The notes under the pieces: generated by a model
Databases searched by the model: none
Told to the model about the DNA's origin: nothing
Seen by the model: the letters and a program-made list of their open reading frames with translations, nothing else
DNA from: Thermococcus onnurineus NA1
Lineage (GTDB): Archaea; Methanobacteriota_B; Thermococci; Thermococcales; Thermococcaceae
DNA: 64,000 nt
Assembly (NCBI RefSeq): GCF_000018365.1
Contig: NC_011529.1
Span: 930,001 to 994,000, forward strand
Direction: 5' to 3'
Position numbers and translations under genes: made by a program
In this document: positions 5,913 to 12,795 of the stretch, one piece after another
How positions within the stretch are numbered: position 1 is the stretch's first letter
Layout: each line of letters starts with the position of its first letter

Positions 5913-6761
5913 TTATTTCTCAATTAATCCCTCTATCAACCTCGCCTTCTCCTGTGCCTTCCTGAGATGCTCCACTGTGACTTTCGTGTAAATCTGAGTT
6001 GTTGACAGGTTCGAGTGACCGAGCAGTTCCTGAATAGCCCTTATATCAACGCCGTTTTCGAGCATGTGGGTGGCAAAGCTGTGGCGGAGCATATGGGGTG
6101 TAACCCGAATTCCAGCCCTGTCGCCGTATTTTTTAAGGAGGTACCAGACGGTCTTCGGAGAGAGCTTATCCTTCCTCTCCCGCCTGTCTTCCACAATAAG
6201 GTATTCGCTGTCGTCATCTCTTGTTTCAAGGTAAGCCTTAATCCCTTCCAGCAGGAAGGCAGGAATCGGCACAACGCGATCCTTGGCGCCCTTTCCGCCG
6301 CGAACGATTATAAGGGAGCGCTCGAAGTCGACATCGGACTTCTTCAGATTGCACAGCTCGCTGACGCGAAGACCTGCGCCGTAGAGGAGGAGAAAAATGA
6401 GCCTGTCGCGCTTCTTCGTCGGCGGGATAACGGAGAGAATTTTCCTGACCTCCTCCCTCGTCAGGCTCTTGGGGAGGCTCTTGGGTACCTTTGGCGGCCT
6501 GAGCTTTTCGGCCTCTTCATCATAGCCTTCAAAGCGGAAGTAGGAGCGCAGGGCTTGGACGACAAGGTTCAGACTCTTGTTGGAGTAACCTTCGCGCCTG
6601 AGCTTTGCGAGAAAACGGAGTGCGGAGCGGGCTTTAAGCTCCCCGCCCCCTTCCAGATAACGCCTCACGTAGTAGGAGTACATCCTAATGGTGTTCGGGC
6701 TCTTGCCCTCCAGATCAAGGTAAGTCTCGTACTCCTCGATTACCTCGTTGATGGCTTCCAT
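5913..6761 (-). CDS. xerA: tyrosine recombinase XerA
   Basis: A 282-residue site-specific recombinase. The N-terminal SAM-like core-binding domain (about 1-90) is followed by the catalytic domain carrying GAGLRVSEL (catalytic Arg), [14 protein letters not shown] (His-x-x-Arg) and [14 protein letters not shown] (His, then the nucleophilic Tyr). Archaeal XerA resolves chromosome dimers at dif without a partner recombinase. The ATG lies one base after the stop of the upstream Toprim-coiled-coil gene, so the two are probably cotranscribed. A complete dif site was not recognised in the window. Confidence 0.92.
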
Positions 6762-6762
6762 T

Positions 6763-7656
6763 TCACAGCCCCTTCAAGAGGCCCTCAATGTCGTCAGGCT
6801 TTATCTCTGCGTCAGCGACAACTTCTGGCTCTTCGGGAGGCTCAGACGGTTTTGGCGGCTCCTTCCTCGGTGGCTCTGGTGGCTTTGGAGGCTCCTCCCT
6901 TATGGAGAGACTAAGGTAGACTGTCTTGAGGAGTTCATCAACTAGTCCCTTGTCCTCGGCGAAGATGTATCCCTGGCCGACTATGACTTTACCCGCCAGT
7001 CCAAGCTTCTCGACGGCTATTGCGATGAGCCTCTCCTCAGGGGTGGGTTCAGCTGGAAAGAGATTCTTCCAGGCATCGTCTATTTTAACTGGTCTGCTCT
7101 TCTTGTTGAGGAGTTCTCTCAATCCTTCATTCTCGTGCCTAATTCTTACGTATTCCCCATGGAGTTCCTCATACTTCTTCTGAAGATCTTCGTACTCTTT
7201 GTAGAGGGCCTCGTAGTCATTTGCCAGCTGGTCGTACTTCCCCTTAACATCAAGGAGCTCCTTTCTCAGTTCCATGTAGCCGGGCAGCAATTGGAGTGTT
7301 TTGAGCCCTGCTCTCACCAGTGTGTTCTTGAGTTCCTTCCTGACGAGCTCGACATCTACGTGCTCAAGGTCATGGCCGAGAGGGAGCTTCATCCTCTCAA
7401 TGTGGCCGACCATCTCGCTCAGCTCATTAAAAAGCCTCTCAGCAAGGTCTCTTCCAACGCGGTCGGCGTCAGTGGCTATGATAAGCAGGTCAGCCCCAGC
7501 TGCGGCGCTCTTTGCAATCTCAACGTTGGTCGTCGGGATTATGGCAGAAATCGTTATGTTGTACTCACTTCCCAAGGCCAGACCTTGAAGAGCTTTACTT
7601 ACCACTTCAACGTCGCTCGCACCTTCAACCAAAATTCTAACATCGACTATGGCCAT
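6763..7656 (-). CDS. Toprim-domain coiled-coil protein
   Basis: A 297-residue protein. Residues 1-110 form a Toprim fold: [13 protein letters not shown] supplies the conserved Glu, and [16 protein letters not shown] the DxD motif. Residues 115-185 are a strong coiled coil ([19 protein letters not shown]), then a globular segment, and the end is rich in KPPEPP repeats before an acidic tail. Toprim domains bind metal and nick or synthesise nucleic acid (DnaG, topoisomerases, OLD nucleases). The biochemical role here is not established. The start at 7656 has GAGGTGATGGGA upstream. It is operonic with xerA, so a role in chromosome topology or segregation is a reasonable inference only. Confidence 0.8.
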
Positions 7657-7670
7657 TCCCATCACCTCGC

Positions 7671-7684
7671 GGGGTCGTTACCCC
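7671..7684. promoter_or_regulatory. inverted repeat in the leader of the Toprim-xerA operon
   Basis: GGGGT and ACCCC arms (5 bp) flank CGTT, directly upstream of the ribosome-binding site of the Toprim gene. It could be an operator or a small RNA hairpin in the 5' leader. The only evidence is the symmetry. Confidence 0.3.
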
Positions 7685-7705
7685 TTTGAAAATAGGGTGG
7701 GGTCT

Positions 7706-8428
7706 TTAAAAATCCTCCCTCAGCTCAACCTCAAGGCTCGGCCTTTCGAGGATCACCCTACCATCTGGAAGGAGTGAAATGCTCAGCGCGTGGATTTCAA
7801 CGCCAGCGTTCTTGGCTTCACTCAGAAGGCGCGCTATCTCAGGGTCGCCTCTCTCGTATGGCCTGAACTTCTCAACACTAGGTATGGCGCCGATGAAAAA
7901 AATCATTGCCTTCCTCCCGGCCTTTTGGAGCTCTATCAGCTCTTTTATGTGCTTCTGCCCCCGCAGGGTAGGACAGTCTGGATACATAGCATATTCTCCC
8001 CTCTCCCCACCTCTCAGAACCGCGCTCTTCATCTCAGCGTAAACCTCTCCGCCAGGACACTCGAAGAGGTAGTCCAGCCTTGAGCTTCCAATGGTTACCT
8101 CTCTCCTCTTTATCCTGCAGTCTTTAAGCCATGGAACCAAGCCAAGCTCCACTGCCTTCTCAAAGGCTTTGGCCTGAGTCCTCGTGTCTATGATGGCTCC
8201 CTTTCCACCTAGGTCTTCAAAGGCAACTAGGACGAAGTCTGTCTTTCCCCCGCTCTTGGGAACGCAGAAGGCCTTCCTCCCTGGAATCATGAACTCTTCC
8301 AAGCGGCCGGTGTTTGTAACTAGGGCTTTTCTTTCTTCCCCGTCAACATCTACTAGTGCCACGAAGCGGTTGAGCCTTTTGATGAATGTACATGGTACAA
8401 CATTAAGCCTGAGGAGTATCTTAATCAT
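7706..8428 (-). CDS. sfsA: SfsA family DNA-binding / nuclease-like protein
   Basis: A 240-residue SfsA homologue. The N-terminal OB-fold-like region begins LRLNVVPCTFIKRLNRF, and VTNTGRLEEFMIPGRKA is the family signature. The C-terminal PD-(D/E)xK-like domain includes GSSRLDYLF and EVYAEMKSAVL, matching a D...ExK core. The E. coli protein was linked to sugar-fermentation regulation; structure suggests a nuclease or DNA-binding role. The ATG at 8428 is chosen over longer frames because it matches the family N-terminus and lies about 27 nt from a TTTAAA box centred at 8455, implying a leaderless mRNA. Confidence 0.88.
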   Translation of the reverse strand: MIKILLRLNVVPCTFIKRLNRFVALVDVDGEERKALVTNTGRLEEFMIPGRKAFCVPKSGGKTDFVLVAFEDLGGKGAIIDTRTQAKAFEKAVELGLVPWLKDCRIKRREVTIGSSRLDYLFECPGGEVYAEMKSAVLRGGERGEYAMYPDCPTLRGQKHIKELIELQKAGRKAMIFFIGAIPSVEKFRPYERGDPEIARLLSEAKNAGVEIHALSISLLPDGRVILERPSLEVELREDF

Positions 8429-8450
8429 ATTTATATTTTGGTTTTCAAAA

Positions 8451-8460
8451 CTTTTAAATT
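8451..8460. promoter_or_regulatory. shared TATA element between sfsA and the V4R gene
   Basis: CTTTTAAATT contains the self-complementary TTTAAA centred at 8455.5. It lies about 27 bp from the sfsA ATG on the minus strand and about 37 bp from the V4R-protein ATG on the plus strand, where an AGGTG ribosome site allows a short leader. Either one bidirectional box or two overlapping boxes would serve both genes. Confidence 0.5.
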
Positions 8461-8492
8461 GATGTATGCATACTCTTTCATAGGTGTTGGGG

Positions 8493-9047
8493 ATGGAAAT
8501 TGAGTACATCGATCTAATCAAACAGTGGCGAAATATTTACAGGTCTGAGATTAAAGAAAAGCCCTCTCAACTTCAGAGAACTGAACTAACCCCCCAGAAT
8601 TACTTCCAAGTTAGAAGACCTTTTTTTGCGAAGCTTTTTCCAGAGGATCCAGAATACGTAAGAACTTTCAGAATGATTTCTTATGGTATGATGGAATATA
8701 GTCCCTCTCTAAGAAGCCTTATTCTGAGAGGTGCGGGATTAAAGCTCGCTAAAAGACTTGTAGAAAGTGGAGAAGTCAAAAGTCTAGATGACCTACCTAA
8801 AGTGTTCTTAAATCAAAAGATAGGGCTTCTTGATATCTTGGAAGAGTCTTTTAATAGGATAAAGCTAAATATCTATGAGTGTATGAGCTGTTACCATACT
8901 GTCCCTATAGGGAGAACTTTATGTGATTTTGAAGCAGGCCTGATCCAAGGTATCATAGAAGAGCTAGTAGGCAGAAACATTACAAGAGAGATATACTGTC
9001 AGGGACTTGGCTACTCTTTCTGTGGCTTTGAGGTAGTATTTGAGTGA
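8493..9047 (+). CDS. corQ: V4R-domain sensor protein, CorQ-like
   Basis: A 184-residue protein whose C-terminal half matches the V4R (4-vinyl reductase) small-molecule-binding domain: YECMSCYHTVPIG near 130, then CDFEAGLIQGIIEEL, and a closing C...G..FC..EV pattern. Five cysteines in this half could bind a metal or a thiol ligand. In Thermococcus onnurineus a V4R protein named CorQ acts with CorR in CO-responsive transcription; this gene has the same domain and sits directly upstream of the CO dehydrogenase cluster. The start at ATG 8493 follows AGGTG. It overlaps or abuts the next gene. Base composition is clearly more AT-rich than genes before 8430. The domain is well supported; the CorQ assignment is by family and context. 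Confidence 0.72.
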   Translation: MEIEYIDLIKQWRNIYRSEIKEKPSQLQRTELTPQNYFQVRRPFFAKLFPEDPEYVRTFRMISYGMMEYSPSLRSLILRGAGLKLAKRLVESGEVKSLDDLPKVFLNQKIGLLDILEESFNRIKLNIYECMSCYHTVPIGRTLCDFEAGLIQGIIEELVGRNITREIYCQGLGYSFCGFEVVFE

Positions 9048-9052
9048 TGGTT

Positions 9053-10156
9053 ATGGGAGTTATAGTTGTACAACCATCAGGAAGGTGTGACGCAACCTGT
9101 GCAAATTGCATTTGGAGAGAAAGGTTAAGTGGAGTAATGCTCCCTGGGGATGTTCTTCCTAGAATAGCCTCTCTTTTAGATGGGTTCAGATTCGATGAAG
9201 GAATATTGATGTGCCCTAACCCGTTTCTTCATCCAAAAATAAAGATTATCTACGATGAGCTGAGGGACATATCAAAAAGGGTGACCGTTTTTATACCCTT
9301 AACTGCCAGTCTCTCCAACCTCAGAGTAGATGTGCTTGCTGATGTGGACATGATCTCTATAATTGTTCCGCCCATGATAGATATTAAAAGAGGGGATACT
9401 CTAATTAGAGCCCTTGAATCGAGAGGTATTGATCACATTGAGGCTTATTTGGTATTTAACTCGAGCTCGGATCCAGGGGAGATCCTTAGGAAAATCGGGG
9501 AGTGCATGAAGCGAGGATTAAGAATAACTGTTGGACCCTCCCTTTTCAGCCCTCCATCCGGAGATATGTTCATTGAATCAATAAGTGCCAGAAAAGATGT
9601 CGAACTTGGCCTGCATTATGGAAGGAAATATCTTTATTCTGCTATGAAAGTGTTCCTAAATGATTATCCCATTACTCTGCTTATGTCCCCCATGGATCCA
9701 TGCAGGCATCTTTATGTTAATCCATATGGCATTATATCAAAGTGTCCAAACTCAAATTTTTCAGTGAGCTACCGGGAGATGACTAGAGAATTACTTCGGA
9801 AGATATTCTTTTCCCCATGTCCCAACAATAAGAATCCGAGTTTTGTACCCAAAGTTGAAATATCCTTTGTTACGTCATCAGGCATAAAAATTCCCGGAGA
9901 TATTATGGAACTCCTTGAACTTATTTCTCAGACCAGATCATTTAGAGCGGCATGTAAGATTATGGGAGTTTCTCCATCAACATACTGGGAAAGGATCAGG
10001 GATATTGAGGAAAAACTCGGGAGAAGATTGATTGTCTCCGTTAAGGGAGGTCGAAAAAAAGGAATAACTGTACTCACTGGAGTTGCCTTGGATCTCCTGA
10101 AAGAATACCAACGGATCCGAGAGAGAGTTTTACTGTCTCTAAATGAAAGGTTCTAA
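9053..10156 (+). CDS. corR: radical-SAM-like / HTH fusion regulator, CorR-like
   Basis: A 367-residue two-part protein. Residues 1-250 look like a radical SAM domain: a CxxxCxxC motif (CDATCANC, residues 12-19) at the end of the first strand, and near 217-233 a DPCRHLYVNPYGIISKC segment like the auxiliary-cluster region of SPASM proteins. Residues 275-345 form a winged helix-turn-helix of LysR/ModE type (RSFRAACKIMGVSPSTYWE, then a beta wing with SVKGGRKKG). The architecture suggests a DNA-binding protein that senses through an iron-sulfur cluster. It is translationally coupled to the V4R gene and precedes cooF. The equivalent T. onnurineus pair CorQ/CorR controls CO genes. Whether it performs radical chemistry or only binds a cluster is unknown. 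Confidence 0.68.
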   Translation: MGVIVVQPSGRCDATCANCIWRERLSGVMLPGDVLPRIASLLDGFRFDEGILMCPNPFLHPKIKIIYDELRDISKRVTVFIPLTASLSNLRVDVLADVDMISIIVPPMIDIKRGDTLIRALESRGIDHIEAYLVFNSSSDPGEILRKIGECMKRGLRITVGPSLFSPPSGDMFIESISARKDVELGLHYGRKYLYSAMKVFLNDYPITLLMSPMDPCRHLYVNPYGIISKCPNSNFSVSYREMTRELLRKIFFSPCPNNKNPSFVPKVEISFVTSSGIKIPGDIMELLELISQTRSFRAACKIMGVSPSTYWERIRDIEEKLGRRLIVSVKGGRKKGITVLTGVALDLLKEYQRIRERVLLSLNERF

Positions 10157-10162
10157 TACGGT

Positions 10163-10222
10163 GGATCGAATAATTTCTTGCGTTTTTATCCGGATCGCCG
10201 AACACGATTCCATCTTAAAATC
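10163..10222 (+). promoter_or_regulatory. cooF promoter with candidate operator
   Basis: The TATA-like TCTTAAAATC is at 10213-10222, about 30-40 bp before the cooF ATG. Just upstream are GGATCG at 10163-10168 and again at 10192-10197 (29 bp apart, close to three helical turns), and CGATTCC at 10205-10211, which forms an imperfect inverted repeat with the second GGATCG. ATCCGGAT at 10188-10195 is a perfect 8-bp palindrome. This is the expected position for an archaeal activator, and the adjacent HTH regulator is the obvious candidate binder. The binding itself is inference. Confidence 0.5.
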
Positions 10223-10253
10223 TTTTTGTTTACATTATACGAGGTGATCAACA

Positions 10254-10892
10254 ATGCCAGCTTTTTCCGGTTCCAACATGGAGAAGCTTACAATTTACAT
10301 AAATCCAGAGAGATGCACGGGGTGCAGGGCCTGCGAAATTGCCTGTGCAGTTGAACATTCAATGAGCAAAAACCTCTTTGGCGCAATTTTTGAAAAACCA
10401 ACCCCCAAACCCCGACTCCAAGTTGTTGTCGCCGACTTCTTTAATGTTCCAATGAGATGCCAGCACTGTGAGGACGCTCCCTGTATGGAGGCCTGCCCAA
10501 CAGGAGCGATCTCAAGGACCAAAGAAGGCTTTGTTGTCCTTAACGCCAACAAGTGCATAGGCTGTCTCATGTGTGTGATGGCCTGTCCATTTGGCCATCC
10601 CAAGTTCGAGCCCGAATACAAGGCTGTGATAAAATGCGACAGTTGTGTTGATAGGGTCAGAGAAGGCAAAGAGCCAGCATGTGTCGAGGCCTGTCCAACT
10701 AGAGCCCTGAAGTTCGGGACTCTCGGCGAAATACTGGAAGAGGTTAGAAAGGAGAAGGCAGAGAGTCTCATATCTGGGCTGAAATCGCAGGGGATGGTCT
10801 ACATGAAGCCCGTCTCCGAGTCAAAGAAGAAAGAGGATCTTGTTAGACCTATGGATCTGTATCTTGCCTATTCAAATGTAGTGTGGTATTGA
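10254..10892 (+). CDS. cooF: CooF-type polyferredoxin, electron carrier of CO dehydrogenase
   Basis: A 212-residue iron-sulfur protein with four cysteine clusters: CTGCRACEIAC, CQHCEDAPCMEACP, CIGCLMCVMACP and CDSC...CVEACP. These would bind four [4Fe-4S] clusters. CooF takes electrons from CooS and passes them to the membrane hydrogenase. The start is ATG 10254 with GAGGTGATCAACA upstream. It is the first gene of the catalytic operon and lies 10 bp before cooS. The family also includes electron-transfer subunits of formate dehydrogenase and DMSO reductase (HycB/DmsB type); position next to cooS decides the name. Confidence 0.92.
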   Translation: MPAFSGSNMEKLTIYINPERCTGCRACEIACAVEHSMSKNLFGAIFEKPTPKPRLQVVVADFFNVPMRCQHCEDAPCMEACPTGAISRTKEGFVVLNANKCIGCLMCVMACPFGHPKFEPEYKAVIKCDSCVDRVREGKEPACVEACPTRALKFGTLGEILEEVRKEKAESLISGLKSQGMVYMKPVSESKKKEDLVRPMDLYLAYSNVVWY

Positions 10893-10902
10893 GGTGGTGA
10901 AA

Positions 10903-12795
10903 ATGGCCGGAAAGAAGGTTCCCTCAAAGCAAGTCTCCATAACTCCAGGTGTTGGAAAGCTTATTGAGAAAGCCGAGGAGGATGGGGTCAAGACTGCCTG
11001 GCACAGATTTTTGGAGCAGCAGCCTCAGTGTGGATTCGGTCTCTTAGGTGTCTGCTGTAAGAACTGTACAATGGGACCATGTAGAATCGATCCGTTTGGG
11101 GTTGGCCCAACTAAGGGAGTTTGTGGTGCGGATGCAGATACAATAGTAGCAAGGAACATTGTAAGAATGATAGCGGCTGGTACTGCCGGTCACAGCGATC
11201 ACTCAAGAGATGTAGTCCATGTATTCAAGGGCATTGCTGAAGGAAAGTTCAAGGACTATAAACTAACAGATGTTGAAAAGCTCAAAGAGCTGGCTAAGAT
11301 TCTGGGTGTCGAAACAGAGGGCAAGAGCGAAAATGAAATTGCATTGGAAGTCGCCCACATTCTTGAGATGGAGTTCGGAAAACAGGATGAGGAGCCAGTA
11401 AGATTACTTGCAGCAACAGCACCAAAGAAGAGGATTAAGGTCTGGGAGAAGCTAGGAGTCTTACCAAGAGCCATCGACAGGGAGATATGTCTCAGTATGC
11501 ACAGAACCCACATAGGCTGTGATGCAGACCCTGCAAGCCTTCTACTGCATGGTGTGAGGACTGCCCTGGCCGACGGCTGGTGCGGCTCAATGATGGCCAC
11601 TTATCTGAGCGACATTCTCTTTGGAACACCAAAGCCGATAAAGTCGCTGGCGAACCTGGGAGTCTTGAAGGAAGACATGGTCAACATAATCGTTCACGGC
11701 CACAACCCGATTCTCTCCATGAAAATAGCAGAGATTGCCCAGAGTGAAGAGATGCAGAAGCTTGCAGAGCAGTACGGAGCAAAGGGAATTAACGTTGCTG
11801 GAATGTGCTGTACCGGAAACGAAGTTCTCTCAAGAATGGGAGTTCAGGTCGCTGGAAACTTCCTAATGCAAGAGCTGGCGATTATAACTGGTGCAGTTGA
11901 GGCCGTGATAGTTGACTACCAGTGCCTAATGCCCTCATTAGTTGATGTCGCTTCATGTTACCACACTAAGATAATAACTACTGAGCCAAAGGCTCGCATT
12001 CCGGGAGCAATACACGTCGAATTTGAACCTGAGAAAGCGGACGAGATCGCCAAAGAGATCATCAAGATTGCAATTGAGAACTATAAGAACAGAGTTCCGG
12101 CAAAAGTCTACATTCCAGAGCACAAGATGGAATTGGTTGCTGGATTTAGTGTCGAGGCAATACTTGAAGCCCTTGGTGGAACACTGGAGCCCCTCATAAA
12201 AGCCCTCCAGGACGGAACAATAAAGGGAATCGTCGGAATCGTTGGATGTAACAATCCAAGGGTCAAGCAGAACTACGGTCACGTCACCTTGGCCAAGGAG
12301 CTCATCAAGAGGGACATCCTGGTTGTTGGAACTGGTTGCTGGGGAATTGCTGCAGCAATGCATGGATTACTAACCCCCGAAGCAGCTGAAATGGCCGGTC
12401 CAGGGCTGAAGGCAGTATGCGAAGCGCTCGGAATTCCACCATGCCTGCACATGGGAAGCTGTGTTGACTGTTCGAGAATCCTGCTGGTCTTGAGTGCCCT
12501 TGCCAATGCTCTGAATGTTGACATTTCAGACTTGCCAGTTGCTGGCTCTGCTCCAGAATGGATGAGCGAGAAGGCAGTGGCAATAGGAACCTACTTCGTT
12601 GCAAGCGGCGTCTTCACGCACTTGGGAGTTATCCCACCAGTCCTTGGAAGCCAGAAGGTTACCAAACTCCTTACGGATGACATCGAGGATCTCCTTGGAG
12701 GGAAGTTCTACGTTGAGACAGATCCAGTGAAAGCGGCAGAAACAATATACAACGTGATAATTGAGAAGAGGAAAAAACTTGGATGGCCCATCTAA
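10903..12795 (+). CDS. cooS: Ni-dependent carbon-monoxide dehydrogenase catalytic subunit CooS
   Basis: A 630-residue anaerobic CODH. The N-terminal cysteine-rich segment CGFGLLGVCCKNCTMGPC (residues 45-62) matches the B- and D-cluster ligands. Later cysteines and histidines in GMCCTGNEVLSRMG, IVGCNNPRVKQ, GTGCWGI and HMGSCVDCSR match the C-cluster [Ni-4Fe-4S] environment. It oxidises CO with water to CO2, releasing two electrons and two protons. The ATG at 10903 follows GAGGTGGTG; upstream GTG codons lie inside that site. There is no ACS/CODH (Cdh) gene nearby, so the role is energy conservation rather than acetyl-CoA synthesis. Confidence 0.96.
   Translation: MAGKKVPSKQVSITPGVGKLIEKAEEDGVKTAWHRFLEQQPQCGFGLLGVCCKNCTMGPCRIDPFGVGPTKGVCGADADTIVARNIVRMIAAGTAGHSDHSRDVVHVFKGIAEGKFKDYKLTDVEKLKELAKILGVETEGKSENEIALEVAHILEMEFGKQDEEPVRLLAATAPKKRIKVWEKLGVLPRAIDREICLSMHRTHIGCDADPASLLLHGVRTALADGWCGSMMATYLSDILFGTPKPIKSLANLGVLKEDMVNIIVHGHNPILSMKIAEIAQSEEMQKLAEQYGAKGINVAGMCCTGNEVLSRMGVQVAGNFLMQELAIITGAVEAVIVDYQCLMPSLVDVASCYHTKIITTEPKARIPGAIHVEFEPEKADEIAKEIIKIAIENYKNRVPAKVYIPEHKMELVAGFSVEAILEALGGTLEPLIKALQDGTIKGIVGIVGCNNPRVKQNYGHVTLAKELIKRDILVVGTGCWGIAAAMHGLLTPEAAEMAGPGLKAVCEALGIPPCLHMGSCVDCSRILLVLSALANALNVDISDLPVAGSAPEWMSEKAVAIGTYFVASGVFTHLGVIPPVLGSQKVTKLLTDDIEDLLGGKFYVETDPVKAAETIYNVIIEKRKKLGWPI

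Follow-up and report, generated by a model that had tools for sequence, protein, structure and literature searches.

A radical SAM-derived domain as a candidate iron-sulfur sensor in CorR, the DNA-binding member of the CorQR activator pair from Thermococcus onnurineus NA1

Where, and by what chemistry, does the CorQR pair of Thermococcus onnurineus NA1 sense carbon monoxide? Where we found a cofactor defined for the CO sensor of an anaerobic CO dehydrogenase (CODH) operon, it was heme; CorQR, known for a decade, still has no defined sensing site. We analyzed a stretch of 64,000 nucleotides from T. onnurineus NA1 (hereafter the window) that carries the genes in question, focusing on a 367-residue protein that a first-pass annotation had described as a regulator fusing a radical SAM-like domain to a winged helix-turn-helix (HTH).

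The corR gene and its neighbors

The layout of the locus is that of CorQR, in which CODH genes are accompanied by one gene for a V4R protein and one for a LysR-type HTH protein (Table 1). The 36-bp footprint published for the repressor EnfR (TON_1525) on the codh promoter of T. onnurineus NA1 (PMC10570040) matches the window exactly and only once. This match identifies our gene as the LysR-type gene of the pair and the frame ahead of it as the V4R gene, so that we are dealing with corR of the known activator pair and with no new regulator. The gene does lie in a CODH operon; the first-pass annotation had missed both this identity and CorQ as an alternative sensor. We call the V4R protein CorQ and the HTH protein CorR, which we take to be the usage of Kim et al. 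2015; this study (AEM 81:1708) reportedly described CorQR of T. onnurineus NA1 and found that loss of either gene impairs growth on CO, and corQ and corR deletions of T. onnurineus are said to exist already. The two names are swapped relative to ours in PMC6557876, and CorQR is credited in PMC4791640 with activating the codh cluster. The corR frame is free of stops; the earliest start codon in this frame, GTG, lies at 9044, and the homologues begin at the ATG at 9053.

Table 1. Features of the corQR-cooFS region, in window coordinates
Feature	Position	Strand	Evidence or remark
corQ, V4R-domain partner of CorR	8484..9047	+	PF02830 V4R, 1.4e-11
corR	9053..10156	+	Radical SAM-derived N-terminal domain fused to ModE/LysR HTH; 367 aa
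CxxxCxxC (C12-C16-C19)	9086..9109	+	Invariant in 23/23
C54-P-N-P, replacing SAM-binding GGEP	9212..9223	+	HHalign to MoaA and L052; C54 and P55 invariant in 23/23
C217-x13-C231, auxiliary-cluster-like pair	9701..9745	+	Aligned with MoaA CxxC-x13-C cluster cysteines; invariant in 23/23
C256, third auxiliary-set cysteine	9818..9820	+	Invariant in 23/23
ModE/LysR-type winged HTH	9848..10147	+	Residues 266-365; family scans, Foldseek to 2ijl and 1b9m
CCGAACACG, probable CorR operator	10199..10207	+	Upstream of cooF, -55 to -47; conservation
EnfR (TON_1525) repressor footprint, codh promoter	10210..10245	+	Exact 36-bp match
cooF-like ferredoxin gene, TON_1017	10254..10892	+	Start agrees with footprint numbering -44..+3
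cooS, Ni-CO dehydrogenase, regulated target	10894..12795	+	TIGR01702, 782 bits

CorR occurs in 16 of 115 genomes of the same phylum (T. onnurineus included; the others at 49% to 97% identity), and a second archaeal phylum (29 genomes), presumably Korarchaeota, adds six orthologs and one paralog at 24% to 27% identity, giving the 23 homologues used below. A scan of genome contigs with the single protein found no relatives, and an alignment-based scan found eight, all of them Thermococcales-like. In a set of 394 genomes drawn from around the second phylum, the N-terminal domain (residues about 1 to 262) was matched in these two groups alone, with all remaining matches covering the HTH only. The gene order corQ-corR-cooF-cooS is kept in every locus where the contig extends far enough. 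CorR is present in 15 of 15 genomes with the highest-scoring CODH of the family, and the sixteenth CorR genome is the fragmented G084, in which the contig bearing corR breaks off within cooF. The regulator is confined to one CODH clade and missing from genomes that have only the other.

Some neighboring genes and distant relatives deserve mention in their own right. Upstream of corQ, the minus strand of the window (5913-8521) carries a xerC-type integrase gene, a gene for a TOPRIM-like coiled-coil protein (assigned by eye) and an sfsA-like gene, and several other Thermococcales keep this order beside their CODH clusters. One contig assigned to a Thermotogota MAG (L036) holds a Thermococcus-like corQ-corR-cooF-cooS cluster and is probably mis-binned. 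In the second phylum, the paralog (L092:1480-2514, minus strand) lies beside a gene for an NADPH-oxidoreductase-like protein and not beside cooF. CorR-like ModE HTHs also occur there in fusion with a solute-binding-protein-like domain, with several such proteins in each genome (L105, L106, L086, and L089).

Descent of the N-terminal domain

The C-terminal winged HTH of ModE/LysR type was recognized correctly from the start: profile searches match it to PF00126 (5.5e-8), to TIGR00637 ModE (1.8e-10; found in 16 of 16 homologues, with scores under the full-family cut-off) and to the ModE-like structure 2ijl (7.9e-13 with our alignment profile A3). Pfam and NCBIfam scans of CorR returned no molybdate-binding domain, no LysR substrate-binding domain (HTH_1 being the sole LysR part) and neither CRP-type nor PAS matches that would suggest a heme-sensor domain.

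The larger N-terminal domain is almost certainly of radical SAM descent, and its derivation from a MoaA-like protein is well supported. HHalign comparison of the 23-sequence alignment of this domain with 25 archaeal MoaA sequences gave 93% (P 2.7e-7) over 237 columns, and it placed the C-terminal cluster cysteines of MoaA on C217 and C231 of CorR. As a control, we ranked 19 radical SAM proteins of the same genome together with 51 other long open reading frames of the window against the N-domain profile; the top 18 ranks all went to radical SAM proteins, so that 18 of the 19 scored above every one of the 51 control frames. Profile A3 also matches MoaA chains in the PDB (2.9e-4), and the ortholog L079 exceeds the Pfam cut-off of PF04055 Radical_SAM (32.3 versus 29.5 bits), a family to which 4 of the 16 Thermococcales homologues show weak matches. 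CorR of T. onnurineus alone has no radical SAM match in PF04055 or in the Pfam/NCBIfam scans, and the case therefore rests on its homologues and on profiles.

Structure prediction had been proposed earlier as a check, with the absence of a TIM barrel as grounds for refutation; the models gave no such grounds, at moderate confidence. Foldseek ranked MoaA first for both of two AlphaFold models (E 6e-4 and 3e-4), followed in the full-length model by LysR and ModE domains, and the models show about six beta/alpha units with MoaA as the best PDB match (pLDDT 63.5 and 69.0; TM 0.31-0.47). Both were built on Thermococcales sequences only, and omission of the more diverse orthologs is why they stay at pLDDT 63-69. 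Since confidence is lowest round the N-terminal cluster loop in both models, we read no geometry from them, such as that of C54 relative to the cluster. The proposed fusion of a radical SAM-like domain, with its second, C-terminal set of cysteines, to a ModE/LysR HTH is supported.

Conserved cysteines and the possible site of CO sensing

Seven of the nine cysteines among the 367 residues of CorR (C12, C16, C19, C54, C217, C231, and C256) are cysteine in all 23 homologues across two archaeal phyla; the other two, C151 and C301, are not invariant. The sequence CDATCANC at residues 12-19 does have the radical SAM spacing that was first noticed. Of 20,000 shuffled versions of CorR, 69 contain CxxxCxxC, and conservation is the stronger test. 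Cluster cysteines follow the pattern CxxC-x13-C in MoaA and C-x9-15-G-x4-C plus a further C in Twitch domains. CorR has an invariant C217-x8-G226-x4-C231 followed by C256, with x8 against the x9-15 of Twitch, and the second phylum shows C-x3-C-x13-C where the first MoaA cysteine is missing in Thermococcales. The later cysteines of the auxiliary-like set suspected in the first-pass annotation lie at these positions and not "near 219-233 and 255"; that list left out the invariant C54.

This seventh cysteine stands at the first glycine of the radical SAM GGEP motif, given that HHalign aligns CPNP of CorR with GGEP of MoaA and the GEPLLYP segment of L052 with PNPFLHP of CorR. A GGE-type motif is found in none of the 23 CorR homologues versus 25 of 25 MoaA sequences, CP[N/D]P is kept in 22 of the 23 (the exception is the paralog L092), and the TTNGS segment of MoaA is not conserved. 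The paralog itself retains all seven cysteines; from its CPNPLLHP motif, PxxHP is missing. The swap of GGEP for CP[N/D]P places an invariant cysteine beside the cluster site, and loss of GGEP from all 23 homologues indicates that the domain probably does no SAM chemistry, in line with the earlier idea that it is not a radical enzyme; canonical SAM binding appears to have been lost as well. That CorR is an active radical SAM enzyme modifying CorQ, itself or a small molecule in addition to binding DNA is accordingly very unlikely, even though CxxxCxxC is intact in 23 of 23 sequences of MoaA-like architecture and a rough scan shows that some radical SAM enzymes also miss the textbook GGE motif: GGEP is replaced throughout, TTNGS is not retained, and the operon offers no obvious substrate gene.

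Retention of all cluster ligands together with loss of the SAM-contacting motif is the pattern expected if a cluster has been kept for sensing, and the domain would seem to be a radical SAM fold repurposed as an Fe-S sensor. We consider it likely that CorR contains Fe-S clusters. Fe-S and zinc ligands look the same in a sequence, and the seven cysteines could in principle bind zinc in a purely structural role while the signal is something else; this seems highly improbable to us, as they are spaced like the ligands of radical SAM [4Fe-4S] sites and, at both ends, line up with the cluster cysteines of MoaA.

Our main reading, to which we assign a probability of roughly 45%, is that CorR senses CO through a cluster. 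CorR would be the DNA-binding half of CorQR as activator of the CO dehydrogenase/hydrogenase cluster, with the C12/C16/C19 site kept, C54 positioned as a fourth ligand and C217/C231/C256 forming a second site, and both sites would most likely hold [4Fe-4S] clusters. CO, or a ligand exchange that it causes at one cluster, would then alter the N-terminal domain. In a more specific and quite tentative version, CO would bind directly at the cluster of the defunct radical SAM barrel, where C54, judging from its position, may have replaced SAM as ligand of the unique iron.

The same features could also serve a redox signal, with the CorR cluster being reduced either by electrons that reach it from CO oxidation through CODH and CooF or by a general low-potential state, and activation following from that. 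An Fe-S-type domain would suit this task, and corR lies directly beside the ferredoxin gene cooF in every locus. Moreover, the V4R domain, detected in 16 of 16 CorQ homologues, has three cysteines (C147, C172, and C180) that are invariant in 16 homologues from both groups, and their spacing of 25 and 8 resembles that in MsvR, a redox regulator whose V4R domain also has three conserved cysteines (C206, C232, and C240, spaced 26 and 8; PMC3729527). We nevertheless regard a redox trigger as rather unlikely, because the cell also reduces its ferredoxin on other substrates, and redox state by itself would be no CO-specific signal.

These cysteines also bear on CorQ itself, whose gene adjoins corR wherever the sequence reaches far enough upstream and which is a credible alternative or joint sensor. 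Indeed, in PMC6557876 the role of sensor is given to the 4-vinyl-reductase domain; the N-terminal domain of CorR would then be a structural or dimerization scaffold whose metal sites stabilize the fold. Apart from the invariant cysteines, such a role would fit with CorQ diverging less than CorR between loci (about 66-75% versus 49-54% identity). A scaffold, however, needs neither seven invariant cysteines nor an invariant replacement at the GGEP position, and no V4R domain is known to us to carry a cofactor that binds CO, so that sensing by CorQ with CorR as mere scaffold appears improbable. At one locus (L047 in G110; 10703-11261, minus strand), CorQ is split into two overlapping pieces in different frames (query 1-158 and 152-187), which suggests a frameshift or sequencing error; CorR is intact there.

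A candidate operator, and CorR among known systems

In the cluster-sensing model, the CorR HTH, together with CorQ, would bind CCGAACACG just upstream of the core promoter of cooF and recruit the transcription machinery from there. The element is identical in all Thermococcales corR-cooF gaps examined and is probably the CorR binding site, judging by conservation. Several Thermococcales gaps also contain its mirror CGTGTTC exactly 47 bp upstream, and T. onnurineus and its near relative L046 have the proximal half-site only. In a comparison of two lineages, the proximal site was 100% and the distal one 90% conserved versus 41% for the surrounding columns. As CCGAACACG ends two bases before the EnfR footprint, the activator and repressor sites would be adjacent and non-overlapping. 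We found no sign of a wider CorR regulon: in genome-wide statistics, which were a pattern search only, CCGAACACGR occurs four times, no more commonly than a control pattern, and the other three copies lie inside open reading frames. Four loci of the second phylum (L078, L081, L082, and L093) have a short TTCGGAA/CGGAAC-like element before cooF that resembles CCGAACAC; we rejected it as operator candidate because it is too short to support a claim.

The regulator itself is known, and what appears undescribed, as far as we searched, is the radical SAM ancestry of the sensing half of CorR. Searches of the open-access literature yielded nothing relevant on regulators that join radical SAM and HTH domains, or on Fe-S clusters having a role in CorR, though this is weak evidence. 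If direct sensing via a C54-ligated cluster holds true, CorR would be a transcription factor that senses CO without heme, and a case of a radical SAM fold that became a gas sensor, and if the change from GGEP to CPNP marks a switch of cluster ligand, it would reveal a route from a radical SAM enzyme scaffold to a regulator. With the seven invariant cysteines, the place of CO sensing can be tested precisely, residue by residue.

Our locus is the published CorQR locus, with the same V4R gene and LysR-type HTH gene beside codh; the published summaries that we read cover only the HTH and V4R domains and mention neither the radical SAM-derived domain nor its cysteines. CorR shares with MoaA (GTP 3',8-cyclase) the fold (by profile and structure search), the N-terminal CxxxCxxC and the C-terminal C-x13-C, but lacks GGEP, TTNGS and, in Thermococcales, the first C-terminal cysteine, and has gained C54 and the HTH. 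Like ModE and LysR regulators it has a winged HTH, though at the C-terminus behind an Fe-S-type domain and with neither a molybdate-binding nor a LysR effector domain. MsvR, the V4R redox regulator of methanogens, combines HTH and V4R in one chain, whereas CorQR consists of separate proteins and CorR adds the radical SAM-derived domain. Finally, CooA and RcoM likewise control CODH genes in response to CO but sense it with heme (PMC6557876), whereas family scans of CorR return no heme-sensor domain.
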